Shown piece after piece: positions 7,592-56,200 of a stretch of 64,000 nucleotides of DNA. The position numbers and the translations under genes are program-made. Source of the stretch: Mycetocola miduiensis (GTDB lineage Bacteria > Actinomycetota > Actinomycetes > Actinomycetales > Microbacteriaceae); the NCBI RefSeq assembly GCF_900115155.1, contig NZ_FOVM01000001.1:682001-746000 (forward strand), written 5' to 3'. How positions within the stretch are numbered: position 1 is the stretch's first letter; the number at the start of each line of letters is the position of its first letter. The notes below the pieces were generated by a model that was given only the letters and a program-made list of their open reading frames with translations, did not search any database and had not been told where the DNA came from.

Positions 7592-7945
7592 CTACAGCCC
7601 GATCTCGCCGATCATCGTCCACACCGTTCGCGTGAGGTCCGGGTGTTCGAGCGCGATCTCACGGAGCAGGTCGTACTCGAGCCTCGCGACGTTGTGGCGG
7701 TGGGTGTCGGCATCCGGGCGGTTGCTGCGCGCGGCATACCGGGCCATCGTGTACTGGGTGGTCAGTCCGCGGGCGTCGAGGGCATCGGCCCGCAACTCGT
7801 AGACGACGAGCTCATCGACCGTCGGCAGGTCGTGGATGAAGTCGTACGGGTCTTCGCCCGCGCGGCAGCGGTGCTCGATGATCACATCGAGTTCGTCGCG
7901 TGCGTACCGGCGCAAGCGGTCAAGGTCGAACGGCGTTGTGGTCAT
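7592..7945 (-). CDS. Hypothetical protein
   Basis: A 117-residue cytosolic protein that I do not recognise. It is charged, with many Arg and Asp residues, predicted mostly helical, and has no membrane segment or cysteine pair. A central segment (LPTVDELVVYELRADAL) and the ending LTRTVWTMIGEIGL are hydrophobic enough to form a compact fold. ATG at 7945 is preceded by a GGGAAGGGGCC ribosome-binding site. The neighbours, a GIY-YIG protein and a divergent DksA-like protein, give no clear lead. Confidence 0.7.
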   Translation of the reverse strand: MTTTPFDLDRLRRYARDELDVIIEHRCRAGEDPYDFIHDLPTVDELVVYELRADALDARGLTTQYTMARYAARSNRPDADTHRHNVARLEYDLLREIALEHPDLTRTVWTMIGEIGL

Positions 7946-7995
7946 GTCGGCCCCTTCCCGTCTCGCTTCATGGCCTGGTTCACTCGATGGCCTGG

Positions 7996-8033
7996 TGCGC
8001 CCAACGACCCGTTGATGCGCCCAACGACCCGTT
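7996..8033. repeat. Two 18-bp direct repeats in a divergent promoter region
   Basis: TGCGCCCAACGACCCGTT occurs at 7996-8013 and again at 8016-8033, a 20-bp period, roughly two helical turns. The pair lies between the divergent genes at 7945 and 8126, so it could be a tandem binding site. A shorter repeat, ATGGCCTGGT, lies just to the left. Confidence 0.6.
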
Positions 8034-8125
8034 AAAGGGTACGCCTTCTTCCCTGGGCAGCGGCAGAGCGGGCAGCGCGCGTGCGGAATTCATGGAAAAC
8101 GGGCACCTGCGTGCGACGATGGGCT

Positions 8126-8503
8126 ATGGAAAACTCACGGTTGAGCACAGCAACGTTGGAGCATTTCCGCGCGGTCCTCGAAGAGCAGCGTGCCGAACTG
8201 CTGCAACAGCGGGCGAACCACGAGGTCTCGCTGGCCGAAGTGCGCGTGGCGCGCGACGGAGAGTCTGACGACGAGCACGACCCGGAAGGCCCGACGATCG
8301 CGTCGGAGTGGTCAAGGCTCACCGGTCTCCAGGAGGAGGCCGCCCGCCAGCTCACCGTCCTCGACAAAGCACTCGCCCGCGTCGACGACGGCAGCTTCGG
8401 GATCTGCGCCCGCTGCGGCAAGCCGATCGGTCGCGCCAGACTCGACGCACGACCGGCCGCAGAACTCTGCATCGACTGCGCCCGGCTCGCCGAAAAGCGC
8501 TAA
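8126..8503 (+). CDS. TraR/DksA family zinc-finger protein
   Basis: A 125-residue protein with an N-terminal coiled-coil-like helical part (residues 10-90) and a C-terminal four-cysteine zinc finger, Cys94/Cys97 (CARC) and Cys115/Cys118 (CIDC). This is the DksA/TraR layout, in which the coiled coil enters the RNA polymerase secondary channel. The actinobacterial members are shorter than E. coli DksA and their role is less certain. ATG at 8126 was chosen because homology begins there; an upstream ATG in frame at 8081 would add 15 residues. The NUDIX gene follows after 27 bp and may share its transcript. Confidence 0.88.
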   Translation: MENSRLSTATLEHFRAVLEEQRAELLQQRANHEVSLAEVRVARDGESDDEHDPEGPTIASEWSRLTGLQEEAARQLTVLDKALARVDDGSFGICARCGKPIGRARLDARPAAELCIDCARLAEKR

Positions 8504-44196: not shown

Positions 44197-44280
44197 AACT
44201 TCGGAGATTCTCGCTGAATCGGCCCTCTCCGGCCGGACACAGCTCGCGAACGAGTGAATATCCGAAGTTGGAAACACGGG
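44197..44280 (+). repeat. 84-nt palindromic repeat, copy b
   Basis: AACTTCGGA at the left pairs with TCCGAAGTT at the right (9 bp, with an outer CC/GG pair). Inner bases differ from copies a and c, but the length is the same and the CGGAGA...TCGCTGAA part is shared. It lies between the response regulator start and the J-domain gene. Confidence 0.7.
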
Positions 44281-44403
44281 TCGGCGTTAGCGGCGGAAGT
44301 CTGGCCTTCTGCCTGCGACCCAACCGCCGCTGGCTTCGAGCACGCCTCCCAGATTTCCTCGGTATCGTCGGATACGCAGAATTCCCCACCCGAAAGCGAG
44401 CGG

Positions 44404-45327
44404 ATGCCAGACAGCCCGATCTCGGCGACGCCTTACGAGGTCCTCGGCGTGAGCCCGACAGCCGGCCAGGACGAATTGCGGCGCGCCTACCGCCGCCTGA
44501 TGCGCGAGACTCACCCGGACACCGGCGGAGATGCCGTCCGGTTCACCGCCGTGCAACTCGCCTGGGAACGGATCGGAACCGTTGAGGGGCGCGCCGCCTA
44601 CGACCGCGGTCGCTCGACAGGTGCGACCGCTCCCGAGGAACACCACACCTGGGCAGCATCCGCCGCCAAGCCGCGGCCGGACTCACGTCCGCGGGCTCGC
44701 TCGTACGGGCATCCGGGCGGCTGGCGGAGGGAGCGATACCTCCGGCTCATGCGGGAGTGGACCGGCCGCGGCGTCGACGCCGACCCCTATGACCCCGCGC
44801 TCGTCCGCACCGCGCCGCGTGAACTCCGCCACCTTCTCGCCGACGCGCTCGCCGAGGAGTCCACCGCCCGCAACCTCGCTGAGCTCGGCCTCGGCTTCAC
44901 CGTCTGGCATGACGTCGCCACCGGGGCACCCGACGAGAAGATCGACCACATCGTTCTCGGGCCGACCGGGCTGTTCGCCCTGCTCTCGGAGGACTGGGGC
45001 AGCGAGGTGAAGATCAAGCGCGGCGAACTCATCGGCGAAGCCATCGACGGAGAACGGCCCATGCATGGACTCGCGGCGCGGGCCAAAGTCGTCAGTCGGT
45101 CGCTGCGCGTGAAGTTCACCGGACTGGCGATCGTGCTCCCCGACGACGCCCTCGAGGCCCCGTACGTTCAGCTCGGCAGCAGCCGGGGCGCAGCGACGCT
45201 CGCCATCCGTGCGTCGTTCCTCCCCGGATTCCTCCGGGCCGGGCTCCCCGACCTTGCCAGGGCGGGCGGCAACGAACTCTTCGACCTGCGCACCCGACTG
45301 CAGAACGGCATCCGCTTCGTGGAGTGA
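44404..45327 (+). CDS. J-domain protein with degenerate NERD-like C-terminus
   Basis: A 307-residue protein. Residues 8-68 form a J-domain with the HPD motif at 37-39, the contact for Hsp70. A linker with YGHPGGWRRERYLRLM (101-116) is shared in kind with the second J-protein at 54750. Residues 145-260 resemble the NERD nuclease-related fold: DEKIDHIVLGPTGLFALLS fits strand-loop-strand, but the catalytic Lys of the xTK motif is missing. It may recruit DnaK to a DNA- or membrane-linked target. The next gene, a NERD protein with intact motifs, follows by 95 bp. ATG at 44404 is used. Confidence 0.82.
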   Translation: MPDSPISATPYEVLGVSPTAGQDELRRAYRRLMRETHPDTGGDAVRFTAVQLAWERIGTVEGRAAYDRGRSTGATAPEEHHTWAASAAKPRPDSRPRARSYGHPGGWRRERYLRLMREWTGRGVDADPYDPALVRTAPRELRHLLADALAEESTARNLAELGLGFTVWHDVATGAPDEKIDHIVLGPTGLFALLSEDWGSEVKIKRGELIGEAIDGERPMHGLAARAKVVSRSLRVKFTGLAIVLPDDALEAPYVQLGSSRGAATLAIRASFLPGFLRAGLPDLARAGGNELFDLRTRLQNGIRFVE

Positions 45328-45422
45328 CCCGGATGATAGCGGCTTGTCGCGAGCCCGTTCTGGGGATGCAATCGCGCCAAGGCGGCTCAGTACTGTCGAA
45401 TGACAGCTACAAAGGGAGTCCA

Positions 45423-46244
45423 GTGACCGTCACCGCCACGAGCATGCGACAGCGCAAGGCTGCACAGGCCGTCATCGAAGAGCTCCTCGCTGACCCCTCG
45501 CACCTCGTCGAGCGTGGCCCGCTGGCCCGCATTTTCGGCCGTTCACCGCTCAGCAGCAGCGGGGCCGCCTGGTTCCGGGGCGCCCAGGGAGAGATCGCGG
45601 TCGGGCGGATGCTTGACACGCTGCCGGCGGACTGGAGCGTCTTCCACGCACTCCCGGTCGGCACGAAAGAAGCCGACATCGACCACCTCGTCGTCGGATC
45701 AGGCGGTGTCTTCAGCATCAACACGAAGCACCACCGCGGAAAGCCGGTCTGGGTTGCGAACCGGACCCTGATGGTGGCAGGACAGCGCCAGCCGCACATC
45801 CGCAACGCCGAACACGAAGCCGCCCGCGTGACCAAGCTCGTGCACGCCAGGCTGGGCCTGACCGGACGGGTCCGTCCGGTCGTCGCGATCCACGGTGCCG
45901 CCTCGATCGTCGTCAAAGAGCAGCCGGATCTCGTCACCGTTCTCGACGCTCGCCGCTTGCGGCGCTGGCTGCTCAAACGTCCGGTGCAGTTCGGACCCGA
46001 AGACCTCACCCGCATCGTCGGGCTGGTCGATGACCCTGCCACCTGGCGCACCGGGGCATCCGCCCCATGCGAGCAACTGTTGGCTCGCTTCGATGAGCTT
46101 CGCGGCGAGGTCCGCACCGCCACAACCCGGCGCTCGCTCTGGAGCTTCGGCAGCCTGGCAGTCGCCGGCGCCGGGCTGATTTTCGTCGCTCCCCTGCTGC
46201 TGACGGCGATGTTCACGTCACTCGCTACGAGCCTGATGCCGTAA
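45423..46244 (+). CDS. NERD domain (nuclease-related) protein with C-terminal membrane anchor
   Basis: A 273-residue protein. The NERD domain (residues 50-165) has GAQGEIAVGRML, then EADIDHLVVGSGGVFSINTK, in which Glu/Asp and Lys102 fit a PD-(D/E)xK-like active site. A C-terminal hydrophobic segment (about 240-265) would anchor it in the membrane. NERD proteins are inferred nucleases linked to DNA processing and some defence contexts; no activity has been shown for this type. GTG at 45423 has GGGAGT upstream. It probably shares a transcript with the J-domain gene. Confidence 0.85.
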   Translation: MTVTATSMRQRKAAQAVIEELLADPSHLVERGPLARIFGRSPLSSSGAAWFRGAQGEIAVGRMLDTLPADWSVFHALPVGTKEADIDHLVVGSGGVFSINTKHHRGKPVWVANRTLMVAGQRQPHIRNAEHEAARVTKLVHARLGLTGRVRPVVAIHGAASIVVKEQPDLVTVLDARRLRRWLLKRPVQFGPEDLTRIVGLVDDPATWRTGASAPCEQLLARFDELRGEVRTATTRRSLWSFGSLAVAGAGLIFVAPLLLTAMFTSLATSLMP

Positions 46245-47174: not shown

Positions 47175-47603
47175 TCAGTCGGCGGATGCCTCAGAAGCAG
47201 CTCGCTTCTTGATGAGCGACCACACGTTCCGGTCCTCGACGCGTTCGTAGCGAACCTCATCGACGAGCATCTGCATGAAAGCAAGGCCACGACCGGATTC
47301 GGCGAGGTCGTCTGGCATGGTCGCGGTACGCATCCGGAATCCGCCTGCCTCGGCTGTGTCACTGAACTGCGCTCGCAGCTCGGTGGAGTCAGCTGACACC
47401 GACAGGGCGCAAGTGACGCCGTCGCCCGTGTCGGCGTGCTGAATGACGTTCGATGCAAGCTCGACTAAAGCGGTTTCGAACGCCATCCGGTCCATCTCAT
47501 CGATATCCGGGTGCAGAGCCCAGGTCTCGTGGAGGAAGTCGTGGACGGCGTCGACGTCAGTGGGCGGCGAAGAGAAGAAGAACGAGTTCTCATGTTTCGT
47601 CAT
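47175..47603 (-). CDS. RsbW-like anti-sigma / serine-protein kinase (GHKL ATPase)
   Basis: A 142-residue GHKL-fold protein of the RsbW/SpoIIAB group. The N-box is ALVELASNVIQHA, and the G2-like box is ESGRGLAFMQML. Such proteins phosphorylate a STAS partner and hold a target, usually a sigma factor. The STAS gene overlaps its start by 14 bp, and a SpoIIE phosphatase lies upstream, so a full partner-switch is present; no sigma factor gene is near. It is the last gene of the set. Confidence 0.9.
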   Translation of the reverse strand: MTKHENSFFFSSPPTDVDAVHDFLHETWALHPDIDEMDRMAFETALVELASNVIQHADTGDGVTCALSVSADSTELRAQFSDTAEAGGFRMRTATMPDDLAESGRGLAFMQMLVDEVRYERVEDRNVWSLIKKRAASEASAD

Positions 47604-47928
47604 GGAAGGCGTCCTCCGCAGTGTCGTAGGTCTTCAAAACCCGGTCGAGGTTCGACAACTGCAGCACCATAACGACCTGTTTCGTCGGTGCGGCGATGCG
47701 CAGGTCGCCGCCCGCCTGGCGGGTGGTCTTCAGGCATCCGATGAGGGATCCGAGACCGGAGGAGTCCATGAAGTCGATGCCGGAGAGGTCGACCACGATC
47801 TTCGACCGGCCGGCATCGACGAGTCCTGTGATCACCTGACGGAGGGCGGGAGCCGACACCATGTTGAGGCGCCCGTCGCCGCGGACAATCGCGATTGTGT
47901 CTCCGACATTCTCGCTGTGAAACTTCAT
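47590..47928 (-). CDS. STAS-domain anti-sigma factor antagonist
   Basis: A 112-residue STAS protein. The phospho-site motif IDFMDSSGLGSLIG has Ser56/Ser57, as in SpoIIAA and RsbV. Phosphorylation by the RsbW-like protein and dephosphorylation by the SpoIIE protein would switch its binding partner. Its ATG overlaps the glycosyltransferase stop by 4 bp, a tight coupling that suggests the switch and the transferase act together. Confidence 0.93.
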   Translation of the reverse strand: MKFHSENVGDTIAIVRGDGRLNMVSAPALRQVITGLVDAGRSKIVVDLSGIDFMDSSGLGSLIGCLKTTRQAGGDLRIAAPTKQVVMVLQLSNLDRVLKTYDTAEDAFHDET

Positions 47929-49877
47929 TTATGCCTTCCTTTTCTTGCGGAATAGCCGCGATACGAGACCGCCCGGAATAGGACGCTCAAGATGATCAGA
48001 TCGAAGACTGCCCAGAAGATGTTCACGCCGGTGCCGAGCGGCTCGGCTCCGTTGACGAAGATCCGGACAAGGCCGATGAGGATCGCGAGTAGCAGCAGGA
48101 CCATAACCACCAGCTGAGGCCGGATCAGGTGCCAGGGCCGCCCGGTCGTCTCCTGCCGGGTCTTCGGAGTGACCGCGAACCCGAGCGGTGTGCCGAGCAC
48201 GACGTTCTGGAACGCTGTCGTGCACGCTTTGATCCAAACCGGGAACAGGGCCAGGCTGTACTGCTGCCCCCGCCAGGTCGGCACCCCGCGCCCGGCGACG
48301 AGGAACAGCAGCTGGTTCACGAGAATGAACGGCACGAACCGCACGAAGAAGTCGAATGCATTCGTATCCACCGGGAGGATGCCGAGAACGAGGAACACGA
48401 TCGGTGCGGCGAAGTAGACGAGCGCGGCGTAGCCGCTCAGGTACGTCCACATTGTGGCGAAGTACATCAGCCGCTGAGGCAGCGTCATTCCCCACTGCAC
48501 GAGCGGGTTCTCGCGCAGCAGGACCTGCATAGTGCCCTGCGCCCAGCGCAGTCGCTGGGTGAGCATCGAGCCGACGTCTTCGGGGGCAAGGCCGTCGGCA
48601 AGCAGTTCGTGGTGGTAAACGCTCTTCCAGCCGAGGCCGTGAAGCCTCATAGACGTCGCCATGTCTTCCGTCACTGAGATGGTCGCGAGCGGCATCACCG
48701 GCTGCGCCTCGTCCGGGCGGTCGATCGCGATGGAGCGGAGCACGGCCTGAACTGCCTCTAGCGCGTTGAATGGCGACAGTTCCTTCGTCGCCAGCGCCGA
48801 AACGGTGTTCTGCAGGTCGATCTGGTACTCCAGGTTCGTCGCGCCTGGCACCGGCGCAGCGAGGGCGTAGATCTCCTTGAGGTCCTCCTCCATCGCCGCG
48901 AGGTCGACGGCGACGATCGACTCAGCGGCCCGGTCGACGCGCTGATGCAGAGCGTAGGTGACCTCGGCGAACGGTTCCTTGCGCGCCAACTGGCCTCGGG
49001 CATCCGTGATCGCGGCGGCGACCTCATCGAGCGCCGCCCGGACGGCGGGCTCGGCAGCCGACGGATGCGAGCGTGCCTTCCGCACGACACGGGACGCCAG
49101 CCGCAGCGACGAGGTAACCGACCGGTCGAGTTCGTCGACGTAGCCGAGGACTCCAAGCATCATCAGCGCCTCGCGACGCAGCACAGCGTTGGAGCCGCAG
49201 AAGAATGCCGCGTTCCAGCCGTCCTTGCCCTGCTGGATCGGCCCATAGAACAGGGGCGCCTGGCTGCCGAGCGGGTCGCCCGTTGCGACGTTGCTGAACA
49301 CCTGAGGCGTTTGCACGAGCGCAACCTTGTCGTCGGTGAAGTAGCCGAGCGTGTTGTCGAGGATCTCCGGGCGCGGAATCTGGTCGGCGTCGAGGATGAG
49401 GATGAACTCTCCATCGGTCATCGACAGGGCGTTGTTGACGTTGCCGGCCTTCGCGTGCCGAGGCAGGCCGTCCCACTCGTCTCCGCGTGTGATGTAGCCG
49501 ATGCCGGCGGACTCTGCCGCCTCGCGCATCTCAGCCCTTGCGCCGTCGTCGAGGATCCAGGTCTTGTGCGGGAATCGGATCGCCTTCGCCGCCATCGCCG
49601 TCGTCATCACGAGGTCGATCGGTTCGTCGTAGGTGGTGATGAGCACGTCTGCCGTGGCGGATGCCGCGGGCGGCGGCGGTGCGAGGCGCGTCCTCGCCTG
49701 CCACATGGTCATGCCGAAGAGGAGCACGTCGATGAGGCTGTAGGTTTCGGCGATGATCAGCGGGATGGCGATCCACCAGGCATCCCAGTTGAGCGAGAAC
49801 AACCAGCGCCAGGCGATGTAGTTCACGCCGAGGATCGCGGTGAGCACGACGATGAGGCGGAGCAGGAAGAGTCGCAT
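47925..49877 (-). CDS. Cellulose-synthase-like family 2 glycosyltransferase
   Basis: A 650-residue membrane glycosyltransferase. Two membrane segments near the N-terminus precede the catalytic domain with ILDDG (Asp110-111), ILDADQ (163-165), SVTED (403-405) and QRLRW (441-445), the processive-synthase signature D,D,D,Q(R)xxRW. Five or six C-terminal membrane segments follow. Between residues 245 and 398 lies an insertion of about 150 residues that is helical in look and absent from BcsA. There is no visible PilZ domain. It may make cellulose or another beta-glucan. ATG at 49877 has GGGGAA upstream. Confidence 0.92.
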   Translation of the reverse strand: MRLFLLRLIVVLTAILGVNYIAWRWLFSLNWDAWWIAIPLIIAETYSLIDVLLFGMTMWQARTRLAPPPPAASATADVLITTYDEPIDLVMTTAMAAKAIRFPHKTWILDDGARAEMREAAESAGIGYITRGDEWDGLPRHAKAGNVNNALSMTDGEFILILDADQIPRPEILDNTLGYFTDDKVALVQTPQVFSNVATGDPLGSQAPLFYGPIQQGKDGWNAAFFCGSNAVLRREALMMLGVLGYVDELDRSVTSSLRLASRVVRKARSHPSAAEPAVRAALDEVAAAITDARGQLARKEPFAEVTYALHQRVDRAAESIVAVDLAAMEEDLKEIYALAAPVPGATNLEYQIDLQNTVSALATKELSPFNALEAVQAVLRSIAIDRPDEAQPVMPLATISVTEDMATSMRLHGLGWKSVYHHELLADGLAPEDVGSMLTQRLRWAQGTMQVLLRENPLVQWGMTLPQRLMYFATMWTYLSGYAALVYFAAPIVFLVLGILPVDTNAFDFFVRFVPFILVNQLLFLVAGRGVPTWRGQQYSLALFPVWIKACTTAFQNVVLGTPLGFAVTPKTRQETTGRPWHLIRPQLVVMVLLLLAILIGLVRIFVNGAEPLGTGVNIFWAVFDLIILSVLFRAVSYRGYSARKGRHK

Positions 49878-49939
49878 CAGTTCCCCACCCGTCGGATGGC
49901 AACACCCGCAGCAAGCCGGGGATGATGACGTAGACCATG

Positions 49940-49968
49940 GGGTTGCAGGACGACGCTCCAGGCAACCC
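49940..49968 (-). promoter_or_regulatory. Hairpin in the leader between phosphatase and glycosyltransferase
   Basis: GGGTTGC and GCAACCC form a 7-bp stem with a 15-nt loop in the 125-bp gap before the glycosyltransferase. No T tract follows. It may be an attenuator or a processing site; no riboswitch class was recognised. Confidence 0.35.
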
Positions 49969-50002
49969 AGCCCTCCAGCGTCTGACTTTCAGGAGACACG
50001 GC

Positions 50003-51178
50003 TCAGCTCAGGCGTGTGATCACGACGAGGGTCACGTCGTCCGTGGCGTTTCCATGGGTCAGCGCTCGAATTCGTTCGGTGATGTCGCGCACGGACGTCG
50101 CTGTGCGGGCGAGTTCTCCGAGCCGGTCGAGCGAGGCGAGTGTCCCATCGAAGAGGTCGAGCAGCCCATCAGTGAACGAGAGCAGGACATCGCCGGCCAG
50201 AAGCGTCGTCGAGCCGGTCTGCCACGTGCCGGCCGGCGTGACTCCGACGGGGAGGCCGGTCGCCTGAAGCCGTTCGACCCGGCCATCGGCCCGCGCAATG
50301 ATGGTCAAACCGTGGCCGGCGTCTGCATAGACGAGTTCTCCGGATGCGACGTCAAGCCGCGCATGGAACAGGGTGGCGAAGGTTTCGGTCGCATCGAAGT
50401 CGCTCGCCAGCTGCGCGTTGACCTGCGCGACTGCGAGGGCCGGGTCTGTGCCGGTTCGGGCTTGGAAGGCCGAACGGACGCCGGCGCCGACGATGGCGGC
50501 TCCCGCACCTTTGCCCATGACATCCGCGACGGTCACGTCGACACCGGTCCCGTGTTCGCTCCAGCTATAAAAATCGCCACTGACCTGGTGGAGCGGCACT
50601 GACAGCCCAGCGCTGTCCCACGCGGGAGCCCCGGGTTGGCTCTGCGGGAGCAGGCTGCGCTGGATGTCGGCGGCGCGGTCACGCTCGGCGGTCTCGCGGA
50701 GTTCACGTTCGACCCAGGTGCCGAGGTCGTCGAGAAGCTGTCTGTCGTCGTCGGTGAGGTCGCGTGGGGATGTATCCACCAGGCAGAGTGTGCCGACGTT
50801 GAGGCCTGGATCAATGCTCAGCGGCCGGCCGGCGTAGAAGCGAATGTGACGCGGCCCGGTGACGGTGTCGCGATTCGCGAACCGCGCGTCGGCGGTGGCA
50901 TCCGGAACCACCAGAAGCTCCTGCTCCTGGATCGTGATGTCGCAGAAGGACTCGGAGCGGGGTGAGTTCGGTGAGTGCCCGGGCGTCTGGGGCGATTTGG
51001 TGAACTGTCTGTTTTCGTCGAGGAGGTTGATTTCGACCACAGGCACGTCAAAGAGCTGCCGCGCTATGCGCGTGATCCGGTCGAAGCGTTCCTCGGGAGG
51101 GGTATCGAGAAGGTCGAGCTCCTCGACCGCTGCGATCCGCATGCGTTCGCTCGCGCTCATGGCGGCTTCGACTGTCAT
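50003..51178 (-). CDS. GAF-SpoIIE family protein phosphatase
   Basis: A 391-residue protein. A GAF sensor domain (residues 20-160; SFCDITIQEQELLVVPDATA) is followed by a PP2C-type SpoIIE domain (190-390) with VSGDFYSWSE, VTVADVMGKGAG, LSFTDGLLDLF and TDDVTLVVITRL, which carry the metal-binding aspartates. It would dephosphorylate the STAS protein when the GAF domain senses a signal such as a small ligand or redox state. ATG at 51178 has AGGGGG upstream. It is 125 bp upstream of the glycosyltransferase on the same strand. Confidence 0.92.
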   Translation of the reverse strand: MTVEAAMSASERMRIAAVEELDLLDTPPEERFDRITRIARQLFDVPVVEINLLDENRQFTKSPQTPGHSPNSPRSESFCDITIQEQELLVVPDATADARFANRDTVTGPRHIRFYAGRPLSIDPGLNVGTLCLVDTSPRDLTDDDRQLLDDLGTWVERELRETAERDRAADIQRSLLPQSQPGAPAWDSAGLSVPLHQVSGDFYSWSEHGTGVDVTVADVMGKGAGAAIVGAGVRSAFQARTGTDPALAVAQVNAQLASDFDATETFATLFHARLDVASGELVYADAGHGLTIIARADGRVERLQATGLPVGVTPAGTWQTGSTTLLAGDVLLSFTDGLLDLFDGTLASLDRLGELARTATSVRDITERIRALTHGNATDDVTLVVITRLS

Positions 51179-54749: not shown

Positions 54750-56018
54750 CTATGCAAACGCCACCCGCCGCGCCACCCGCTCCACCAGCTGGCGCACTTC
54801 CCAGCTCTCACCGCGTTCGATGCCGTGTATCCCACCACCGAGCATCGGCGCAAGCCGGGTTATCCCGATCCGCCACGAGAGGGTCGGCACCTCTCCGAGC
54901 TTCGCCGGCGGCGCGTTCACCGCAGCCGGGTCCAGATCGACGAACAGCACCCCGGACAGGGCGGCAACGCCAACCGCATCCGCCAACTCCGTCAGTCGCG
55001 GATCGAGACGCGGCCGCTCACTGAGGGGCTCCACGAGAAAGAGACCCTGCGGCCCGACCACCAGATGCGAGGCATAGGCATCCGTTTCGCGGATCCGCAC
55101 GTCATCCCAAATGGTGAACTCATCACTGAGCGACTTTAAGGCCCCGGCGATTTGCTCCTGCGCCAGCGCCCTGGCGAGCTCGACCTGGGCTGCGGCTGGC
55201 GCAACCATCACCGACTCAGGCGAATACGGCGATCGGAGAAAACTGTCTGGAGACTCGGGGAGACGGCCCAAGTCCTCGTGGAACGCCCGCAGGTCGGCAG
55301 CATGCGCGGCCCAAAGCCCGGCATAGATGTCCCGATTGCGCGCCCGGACGCGACGAACCTCGGCACGCGCAGGACTCGTGCCCAGCCGCAGCGTCGCCAC
55401 AGCCCCGCCACAGAGGAACGCCACCCCGAAGAGAGCGATCGTGACGTGGCGCAGCACAGGGAACAGCGCGTCCGTCGGAATCGTGGGCAGATTTCCGGCG
55501 GCAGCCGCGATCGCGGCCAGGCCGGCAACGATCAGCACAAAGGTCACGAACAGTTGCAGGCAAACGACGCCCCACATGTGCAGAAAGCGGTCACGCTCGT
55601 GCGGGATGCGCGGCGGCTTCGCGGGCGGCGTCGGTGGCTGGGGCGACAGCATCCATTCGCGGGCGATATCGAGGTATCGGGAACGTGAATATCCGCCCGG
55701 ATGCCCGTGGGCCGTCGCGAAAGTCGGCGTCGCTGTCGCGGTTGGCTCGTCGGCTGTCCGGCGCGACGACGCCCGTTCGCGGCGGGTCTCGCCCTTCGGA
55801 GGAGCGGATGCCCTTGGCAGGTTCAGTCGGTCGTACTCGCTTCGCCGGGCGGCATCGCCCAGAACGGCCCACGCCTCTTGCACCCTGCGGAAGCTCTCGG
55901 CCGAGCCACCGACATCCGGGTGACTGGCGCGGAGCGCGCGTCGATAGGCTCGCTTGAGGTCATCGAGATTTGAGGCGGGCGGCGCACCGAGAACGTCGTA
56001 ATAGGTCTCGCGACTCAT
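54750..56018 (-). CDS. J-domain protein with two membrane segments and degenerate NERD-like C-terminus
   Basis: A 422-residue protein with the J-domain at 5-66 (HPD at 33-35), then a HGHPGGYSRSRYL motif (near 112-124) as in the J-protein at 44404, two membrane segments near 165-235, and a C-terminal region (about 310-422) with SHLVVGPQGLFLVEPLSE that fits the NERD strand pattern but lacks both the acidic pair and the Lys. It may place DnaK activity at the membrane. ATG at 56018 is used. It is 60 bp downstream, convergent, of the ribokinase gene. Confidence 0.82.
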   Translation of the reverse strand: MSRETYYDVLGAPPASNLDDLKRAYRRALRASHPDVGGSAESFRRVQEAWAVLGDAARRSEYDRLNLPRASAPPKGETRRERASSRRTADEPTATATPTFATAHGHPGGYSRSRYLDIAREWMLSPQPPTPPAKPPRIPHERDRFLHMWGVVCLQLFVTFVLIVAGLAAIAAAAGNLPTIPTDALFPVLRHVTIALFGVAFLCGGAVATLRLGTSPARAEVRRVRARNRDIYAGLWAAHAADLRAFHEDLGRLPESPDSFLRSPYSPESVMVAPAAAQVELARALAQEQIAGALKSLSDEFTIWDDVRIRETDAYASHLVVGPQGLFLVEPLSERPRLDPRLTELADAVGVAALSGVLFVDLDPAAVNAPPAKLGEVPTLSWRIGITRLAPMLGGGIHGIERGESWEVRQLVERVARRVAFA

Positions 56019-56200
56019 CCGCCCCCCTCGCTCGGTAAGCGACACCCCAATCTAGGGTGAGGTGATTCGGCAAGCGAGGCCCCAGTTGTGGGATGCCGAC
56101 GAATGGGCGCTCATCTCGTCTGCAACGACTTCGCTACATCAGCCAGACACCGAGCACCAGCTCGAATCGTGAACGGGTGGAAGGAAAGGGGCGGGGGCAG

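Follow-up and report, generated by a model that had tools for sequence, protein, structure and literature searches.

The window analysed here, a stretch of 64,000 nucleotides from Mycetocola miduiensis (contig NZ_FOVM01000001.1, positions 682,001 to 746,000 of the forward strand), contains a four-gene partner-switch module built around a cellulose-synthase-like glycosyltransferase. Its members are a GAF-SpoIIE phosphatase, a processive family 2 glycosyltransferase (GT2), a STAS protein and an RsbW-like kinase (Table 1). A previous reading made from the sequence alone had placed all four genes on one strand, on which Pfam and the coordinates agree, and the spacing given there is reproduced exactly: the phosphatase and GT2 genes are 125 bp apart, GT2 and STAS overlap by 4 bp, and STAS and the kinase overlap by 14 bp. 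We propose that the output of this switch is the synthase itself, which would be set by direct contact with the STAS protein. Judging from gene content and residue conservation, we consider this probable.

Table 1. Coding regions of the switch and synthase genes in the window (E values after Pfam names)
Feature	Coordinates	Strand	Details
GAF-SpoIIE (PP2C-type) phosphatase	50003..51178	-	391 aa; Pfam SpoIIE 6.7e-33, GAF 1.4e-12
BcsA/CesA-like processive GT2	47925..49877	-	650 aa; Pfam Cellulose_synt 5.8e-25; NCBIfam match
Helical insert of GT2, coding region	48696..49142	-	residues ~246-394, between GSNAVLRR and TED
STAS protein	47590..47928	-	112 aa, FMDSSGLG; Pfam STAS 8.5e-21
HATPase_c_2 (RsbW/SpoIIAB-like) serine kinase, predicted	47175..47603	-	142 aa; Pfam 2.9e-14

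The phosphatase frame is open from 51268, and the ATG at 51178 is preceded by GAGGGGGA sequence. No terminator-like site is found by the scan in the gap between phosphatase and GT2. One promoter-like match is given by the promoter scan, at the STAS start (0.4 expected), and no Rfam RNA element is matched within the window at gathering scores. In the genome (3.30 Mb, 15 contigs, completeness 100) the GT2 and SpoIIE (PF07228) are each matched once, and HATPase_c_2 (PF13581) is matched eight times. Of these eight one is full-length, and the other seven are partial and lie within frames of 400-651 aa.

Long hydrophobic helices are observed at the N- and C-terminus of the GT2. It shares with BcsA the fold and the DDG, DxD, TED and QxxRW motifs, which occupy residues 110-112, 163-165, 403-405 and 441-445 (here QRLRW) and are invariant in 33 aligned sequences. 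It differs from BcsA by the long insert before TED, by giving no Pfam match to PilZ at E values up to 0.01, and by its score against the NCBIfam CelA/BcsA model (TIGR03030, an equivalog domain), which is 344.9 bits and thus under the cut-off of 699.1. The best structural matches of the AlphaFold model are BcsA and plant CesA. This single model, with a mean pLDDT (predicted local distance difference test) of 69, is adequate for the fold and roughly so for the insert helices. The insert is helical in it, at moderate-to-low confidence (block pLDDT from 86 down to 39), and its position resembles that of the class-specific region of plant CesA.

Conservation of the module among relatives

Eighty loci were kept from a genome-contig scan of 461 relatives, from Microbacterium, Cryobacterium, Rathayibacter, Glaciihabitans, Arthrobacter and its relatives, Kocuria, Gordonia and others. 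STAS and kinase are found by tblastn in 78 of the 80 and the phosphatase in 77. Searched for across whole genomes at E 1e-60, such GT2s turn up in 15 of the 297 genomes from the order, in 4 of the 396 from the phylum, where two lack the insert, and in 42 of the 200 from a further family (f9); the three sets overlap. The distribution of the GT2 is patchy, as expected of an accessory module.

All loci were then joined in one survey, with groups set by the score of a GT2 hidden Markov model (HMM): above 900 bits for the main group and 500-900 bits for the sister group. Left out of the counts are 18 short loci that duplicate longer ones, and L001, L082-L092, L096 and L121 (own-genome or unrelated). 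One pair among 138 loci is identical at the GT2 end, and a species may be represented more than once, so the loci are not independent species. In the 124 main-group loci STAS is adjacent in 121, the kinase in 120 and the phosphatase in 115; 19 of these loci are shorter than 6 kb, and some absent phosphatases may fall outside. STAS lies on the same strand and directly downstream of GT2 in 117 of the 121 main and 10 of the 12 sister loci. The exact gene order of the window is found in 75 main loci. Elsewhere the phosphatase gene is found after that of the kinase, between those of GT2 and STAS, or on the opposite strand, and in one locus STAS and kinase precede GT2. That the same partners are retained in rearranged order points to function rather than mere synteny. 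Six genomes that were searched have one to six recognisable STAS matches each; with so few STAS proteins per genome, the adjacency of STAS and GT2 in nearly every main locus is unlikely to be due to chance. The gene-neighbourhood check suggested by the sequence-only reading thus finds the association conserved well beyond close strains, and also in other phyla. A separate locus of one surveyed genome (G251; L200:1827-3367 and 7730-8140) has a piece of the GT2 C-terminus beside a gene that is resolvase-like by eye, with a DSTG-type STAS about 4 kb off; it is perhaps a decayed module.

The window STAS aligns with SpoIIAA across the DSSG site, and DSSG is retained in all 121 main-group STAS proteins. 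We take the phosphorylated serine of SpoIIAA to be Ser58, the first serine of the motif. In the phosphatase, metal-site Asp232 (421-aa frame) is retained in 114 of 114 aligned sequences, and four further metal-site Asp residues are retained in every sequence not gapped there (111 or 112 of 114). The N-box residues E48 and N52 of the kinase are present in 120 of 120, and the G-R-G of its G2-box is conserved at 100, 99 and 100%. Mean pairwise identity over 113 loci is 60% for STAS, 49% for the phosphatase domain and 43% for the kinase, the lowest value among the four proteins. The sensor domains of the phosphatases differ among the seven relatives scanned, being GAF, receiver, MASE1-PAS or none recognised.

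The spacing between GSNAVLRR and TED is 158-179 aa in 117 of the 120 main-group GT2s measured and 117 aa in the other three (four of the 124 unmeasured), and 123-167 residues in all 12 GT2s of the sister clade. In more distant GT2s with both halves matched the alignment breaks off at residue 240-242 and resumes at 395-400; the motif spacing is 14 residues in the four that are measurable by motif pattern. Around 28 distant GT2s (L102, L103 and L170-L195) no STAS, kinase or phosphatase is found in flanks of at most ~1.5 kb. Compared with none of these 28 within such flanks, 133 of 136 insert-bearing loci have STAS adjoining GT2. The insert may be the docking site of STAS.

The sister clade comprises 12 loci (L104-L107 and L150-L157) from two families of genomes and has a tree support of 1.0 (main clade 0.92, joint clade 0.986). 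STAS is found downstream of GT2 on the same strand in all of them. Kinase and phosphatase are each found in none of the 12 within the stretches of 9-18 kb covered. The sister STAS proteins have all lost the Asp-Ser of DSSG and read xPSG or GASG at this site. Loss of the phospho-serine is expected if STAS serves GT2 apart from the kinase. A synthase that retains STAS without an adjacent phospho-switch argues that STAS, and not the kinase, touches the synthase, and we regard it as the strongest evidence on this point. The pairing of GT2 with STAS is what stays constant, and phospho-control is an optional layer. On these comparisons STAS rather than the kinase is likely the synthase-binding element.

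The module in other phyla and known partner switches

The sequence-only reading knew of no partner switch joined by operon to a GT2 in Actinobacteria. The arrangement is confined neither to Microbacteriaceae nor to Actinobacteria: the trio of STAS, kinase and phosphatase also occurs with a cellulose-synthase-like GT2 in one cyanobacterium as well as among alpha- and gamma-Proteobacteria. A plasmid of Nostoc sp. UHCC 0926 encodes a GH26-like protein (just under the Pfam cut-off), DUF3131, GT2, PIG-L, a STAS with DSSG, phosphatase parts and HATPase_c_2. The receiver and SpoIIE parts of this phosphatase are split (L199:10427-13552) by an open reading frame (ORF) that is transposase-like by eye and has no Pfam match. 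A Paracoccus GT2 as query finds 17 plasmid records, of which nine were inspected, and in eight of these nine proteobacterial loci the trio is near a cellulose-synthase-like GT2. For seven of them the annotation itself names a STAS protein, an ATP-binding protein and a phosphatase (Paracoccus seriniphilus, Pseudooceanicola, Sphingobium, Pantoea, Rhodobacteraceae SC52, Salmonella enterica and Chimaeribacter), and in the Vibrio THAF190c plasmid all three were recognised by HMM. The P. liaowanqingii plasmid locus has a phosphatase and a partial ATPase; STAS was looked for there and not found. The phospho-site reads DSSG, DSTG or DSSS in the eight STAS proteins aligned, from Nostoc and seven Proteobacteria. 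The Nostoc GT2 has an insertion of ~105 residues between DDG and HAKAGN, and the proteobacterial GT2s have two short insertions. DUF3131 is found in seven of the eight annotated proteobacterial loci, and OpgC or an acyltransferase likewise in seven of eight, Sphingobium having neither. No near match of the Salmonella-plasmid module is found in 5,426 E. coli genomes, and STAS as a plasmid query gives two distant matches, in Streptomyces and Nonomuraea. The Pantoea, Salmonella and Chimaeribacter plasmids (L208, L210 and L211) carry the switch, GT2, OpgC, three DUF3131 genes, a globin and a large response regulator in identical order.

The domain set, the DSSG phospho-site and the kinase N-box are shared with RsbU/RsbV/RsbW and SpoIIE/SpoIIAA/SpoIIAB. 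The present system differs from these in that the genome has no SigB/F/G sigma, a membrane glycosyltransferase lies in the operon, and the kinase has no NCBIfam match to RsbW or SpoIIAB, its sole NCBIfam match being a weak one to RsbA below the cut-off. SypE/SypA of Vibrio fischeri was cited by the sequence-only reading as a precedent. It holds as a sigma-free switch on polysaccharide and is weaker than implied, the SypA target being given as unknown in the available text of PMC8256260. According to the same text, SypE/SypA and HmpU/HmpV/HmpW of Nostoc punctiforme resemble the present system as polysaccharide or biofilm switches with no established sigma, and the unphosphorylated STAS is the active form for SypA and is suggested to be so for HmpV. 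The HmpV target is described there as unresolved, whereas a candidate target is encoded here in the same operon.

SiaC-SiaD is the better precedent. In SiaABCD of Pseudomonas aeruginosa a phospho-switched small protein binds an enzyme helix: SiaC in its unphosphorylated form activates SiaD by binding to its helical stalk, phosphorylation of SiaC prevents this, the phosphatase SiaA and the kinase SiaB set the state, and the output is biofilm (PMC8457831, as far as its available text goes). SiaABCD differs in its target, a diguanylate cyclase (SiaD) rather than a polysaccharide synthase, and in its phospho-site, which is T68 of SiaC (same text). Anabaena all4160 combines a glycosyltransferase and an N-terminal STAS in one protein (PMC8256260, available text, citing Wang et al. 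2007); it differs in being fused, and the likeness is one of description only. A similar gene block, accessory block 3b of Klebsiella pneumoniae, appears in a 2026 paper, where it is reported as accessory to a population-genetic axis, with no link between switch and synthase proposed in the available part of that paper (PMC12974863). Among open-licence full texts, none was found whose title or abstract start ties a processive GT2 directly to a partner switch.

Proposed control of the synthase and alternative outputs

Gene order, protein families, the conservation of catalytic and phospho-acceptor residues, the recurrence across three phyla, the absence from this genome of any SigB/F/G match above the RpoD level, and the kinase-free GT2-STAS pairs with a lost phospho-site were computed directly. 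On this basis the following mechanism is proposed. The kinase would phosphorylate the first serine of DSSG in STAS (OFF), and the GAF-SpoIIE phosphatase, as the input, would remove the phosphate on sensing a ligand (ON), the variable sensor domains providing input variety. Unphosphorylated STAS would bind GT2 from the cytoplasmic side, possibly at the helical insert that lies shortly ahead of TED, and the docked STAS would switch the synthase on, leading to extrusion of a polysaccharide, perhaps a beta-glucan. STAS control would thereby stand in place of cyclic di-GMP (c-di-GMP) and PilZ. Unphosphorylated STAS is taken as the ON form because of the analogy with SiaC-SiaD. Control of polysaccharide synthesis by the switch at the protein level, as suggested by the sequence-only reading, is supported by the genomics; the contact itself, the active form, the docking site, the ligand and the product are inferred.

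Several observations weigh against the proposed control of the synthase by STAS. The Asp of the kinase G1-box (residue 82) is Asp in 55 of 120 sequences, Ala in 55, Glu in nine and Gln in one; the window kinase has Asp, and the Ala examples listed are Arthrobacter-type loci. Since this Asp is missing in many relatives, kinase activity is doubtful there, and Ala-type kinases beside an intact STAS phospho-serine and intact phosphatase residues fit a phospho-switch poorly. Three of the 124 main loci are without an adjacent STAS. One of them (L008) stops shortly past GT2; another (L018, A. agilis 4041) has GT2 alone, with phosphatase, STAS and kinase clustered elsewhere in the genome; and the third (L108, from G251) belongs to a genome that has other STAS genes, on two further contigs. 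A further locus (L159) has STAS and no kinase match. Insert and STAS occur together in a single clade, and common descent therefore confounds their correlation. The insert has a mean pairwise identity of 51%, against 74% for the GT2 core and 60% for STAS, and the inserts of the Nostoc and proteobacterial GT2s are of different size and place. The absence of the kinase from the sister clade covers the 9-18 kb loci, kinases elsewhere not having been sought, and three sister-clade genomes (G085, G207 and G796) additionally carry the full module. As a separate observation, the Ala-type kinases, in which the N and G2 boxes are intact, are a possible pseudokinase branch.

A classical switch acting at a distance would have the kinase hold a sigma factor encoded elsewhere (FliA-like, extracytoplasmic function (ECF) or RpoD), with the synthase as a co-transcribed member of the regulon. 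The three canonical parts with their conserved residues would suit this, as would a Chlamydia study, cited in the available text of PMC8256260, whose title attributes control of the primary sigma factor to an Rsb network. RpoD and a FliA-type sigma beside flagellin do exist in this genome. They are its two matches to TIGR02980 (SigB/F/G), both below the cut-off, and no SigB/F/G-type sigma is found above the RpoD level, ECF sigmas not being searched for. Among 13 full-module genomes of the order sample, eight have nothing above RpoD level and five have a SigB/F/G-like sigma, a count that also speaks against the synthase as the output. At E 1e-45 none of the 42 f9 genomes that carry the GT2 (33 with the main type, nine with the sister type only) has such a sigma, compared with 3 of all 200, and the full-module genome G196 has one TIGR02980 match, at RpoD level, hence no FliA match. 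A phmmer search with the genome's own RpoD and FliA finds nothing among 10,473 ORFs from 156 sources including the window, and distant sigmas could escape it: each query recovered itself as a positive control, but RpoD failed to recover FliA, which makes this a weak test. The statement of the sequence-only reading that no sigma gene is nearby therefore stands for close relatives of RpoD and FliA and not for distant ones. No sigma gene is annotated in the eight annotated proteobacterial loci. Furthermore, the kinase matches RsbW or SpoIIAB in phmmer only at E 0.16-0.94, and in all 12 sister loci GT2 and STAS occur without an adjacent kinase. Taken together, we regard a distant sigma as an unlikely output.

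It would be an exact parallel to RsbW logic if the kinase itself bound and inhibited the synthase and unphosphorylated STAS removed the kinase, and the presence of the kinase in 120 of the 124 main loci suits this. The sister clade, however, retains STAS without an adjacent kinase in 12 of 12 loci, and the kinase is the least conserved protein of the module, which leaves direct regulation by the kinase a small probability. Smaller still, in our estimate very small, is the probability that STAS acts on another envelope partner (OpgC or acyltransferase, an accessory protein, or a lipid) and controls the synthase indirectly. Genes for GH26-like proteins, OpgC, acyltransferase and DUF3131 are often near the module, but none of them is constant, none is adjacent in the window, and the only GH26 match of the genome is unlinked, while GT2 is the constant neighbour of STAS.

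Beyond direct contact of STAS with the synthase in this genome, we lean slightly towards a broader picture. Cellulose-synthase-like polymerases in at least three phyla would be gated not by c-di-GMP but by a partner switch, with STAS as an allosteric subunit on clade-specific helical inserts and kinase and phosphatase as optional parts, one lineage having become phosphorylation-blind by joint loss of kinase, phosphatase and phospho-serine. A candidate target is encoded beside the switch in three phyla, so that a few purified proteins would suffice for a direct test of the target question, which the review describes as unsettled for SypA and HmpV. If the proposal is true, the BcsA/CesA superfamily would have an extra mode of post-translational control besides c-di-GMP, natural phosphorylation-blind variants would serve as controls, and the cellulose-synthase/DUF3131/OpgC block on enterobacterial plasmids would have a working hypothesis.

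Polymer, accessory genes and neighbouring genes

A GH26-type cluster is found in 22 of 99 surveyed sources and a GH26-like/OpgC protein in 15 of 99. Pfam confirms GH26 in both scanned proteins of the former. In the latter, OpgC is found in both scanned proteins and GH26 just below the cut-off in one of the two, and blastp ties the N-terminal part to GH26 proteins. The single, unlinked GH26 match of the window genome shares 57% identity with one in L006 and 51-55% with the GH26 matches next to four GT2s of the sister clade. The GH26 and GH16 families both include lichenases. Given the company of GH16 and GH26, a beta-glucan is a reasonable guess, and the product is perhaps a beta-glucan, perhaps of mixed linkage. 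Cellulose, mixed-linkage glucan, curdlan and mannan may all be considered as candidates, the linkage not being deducible from sequence. Curdlan is considered because it is made by Cellulomonas (PMC3544764, available text).

In L002-L012, L014, L018, L048 and L060 a gene near GT2, often directly upstream of it, encodes a protein of 818-1112 aa that combines an OpgC domain with a GH26-like N-terminal part. In four sister loci (L104-L107) a GH26 gene follows, and GH16-ricin-lectin genes are nearby in the two that were scanned, L104 and L106.

Outside the module, Pfam identifies a DnaJ-NERD gene followed, with a 4-bp overlap, by a NERD gene at 44254-46244 of the window. A second gene opening with a DnaJ-like motif (by eye) lies at 54750-56045, 10 kb from the DnaJ-NERD/NERD pair.

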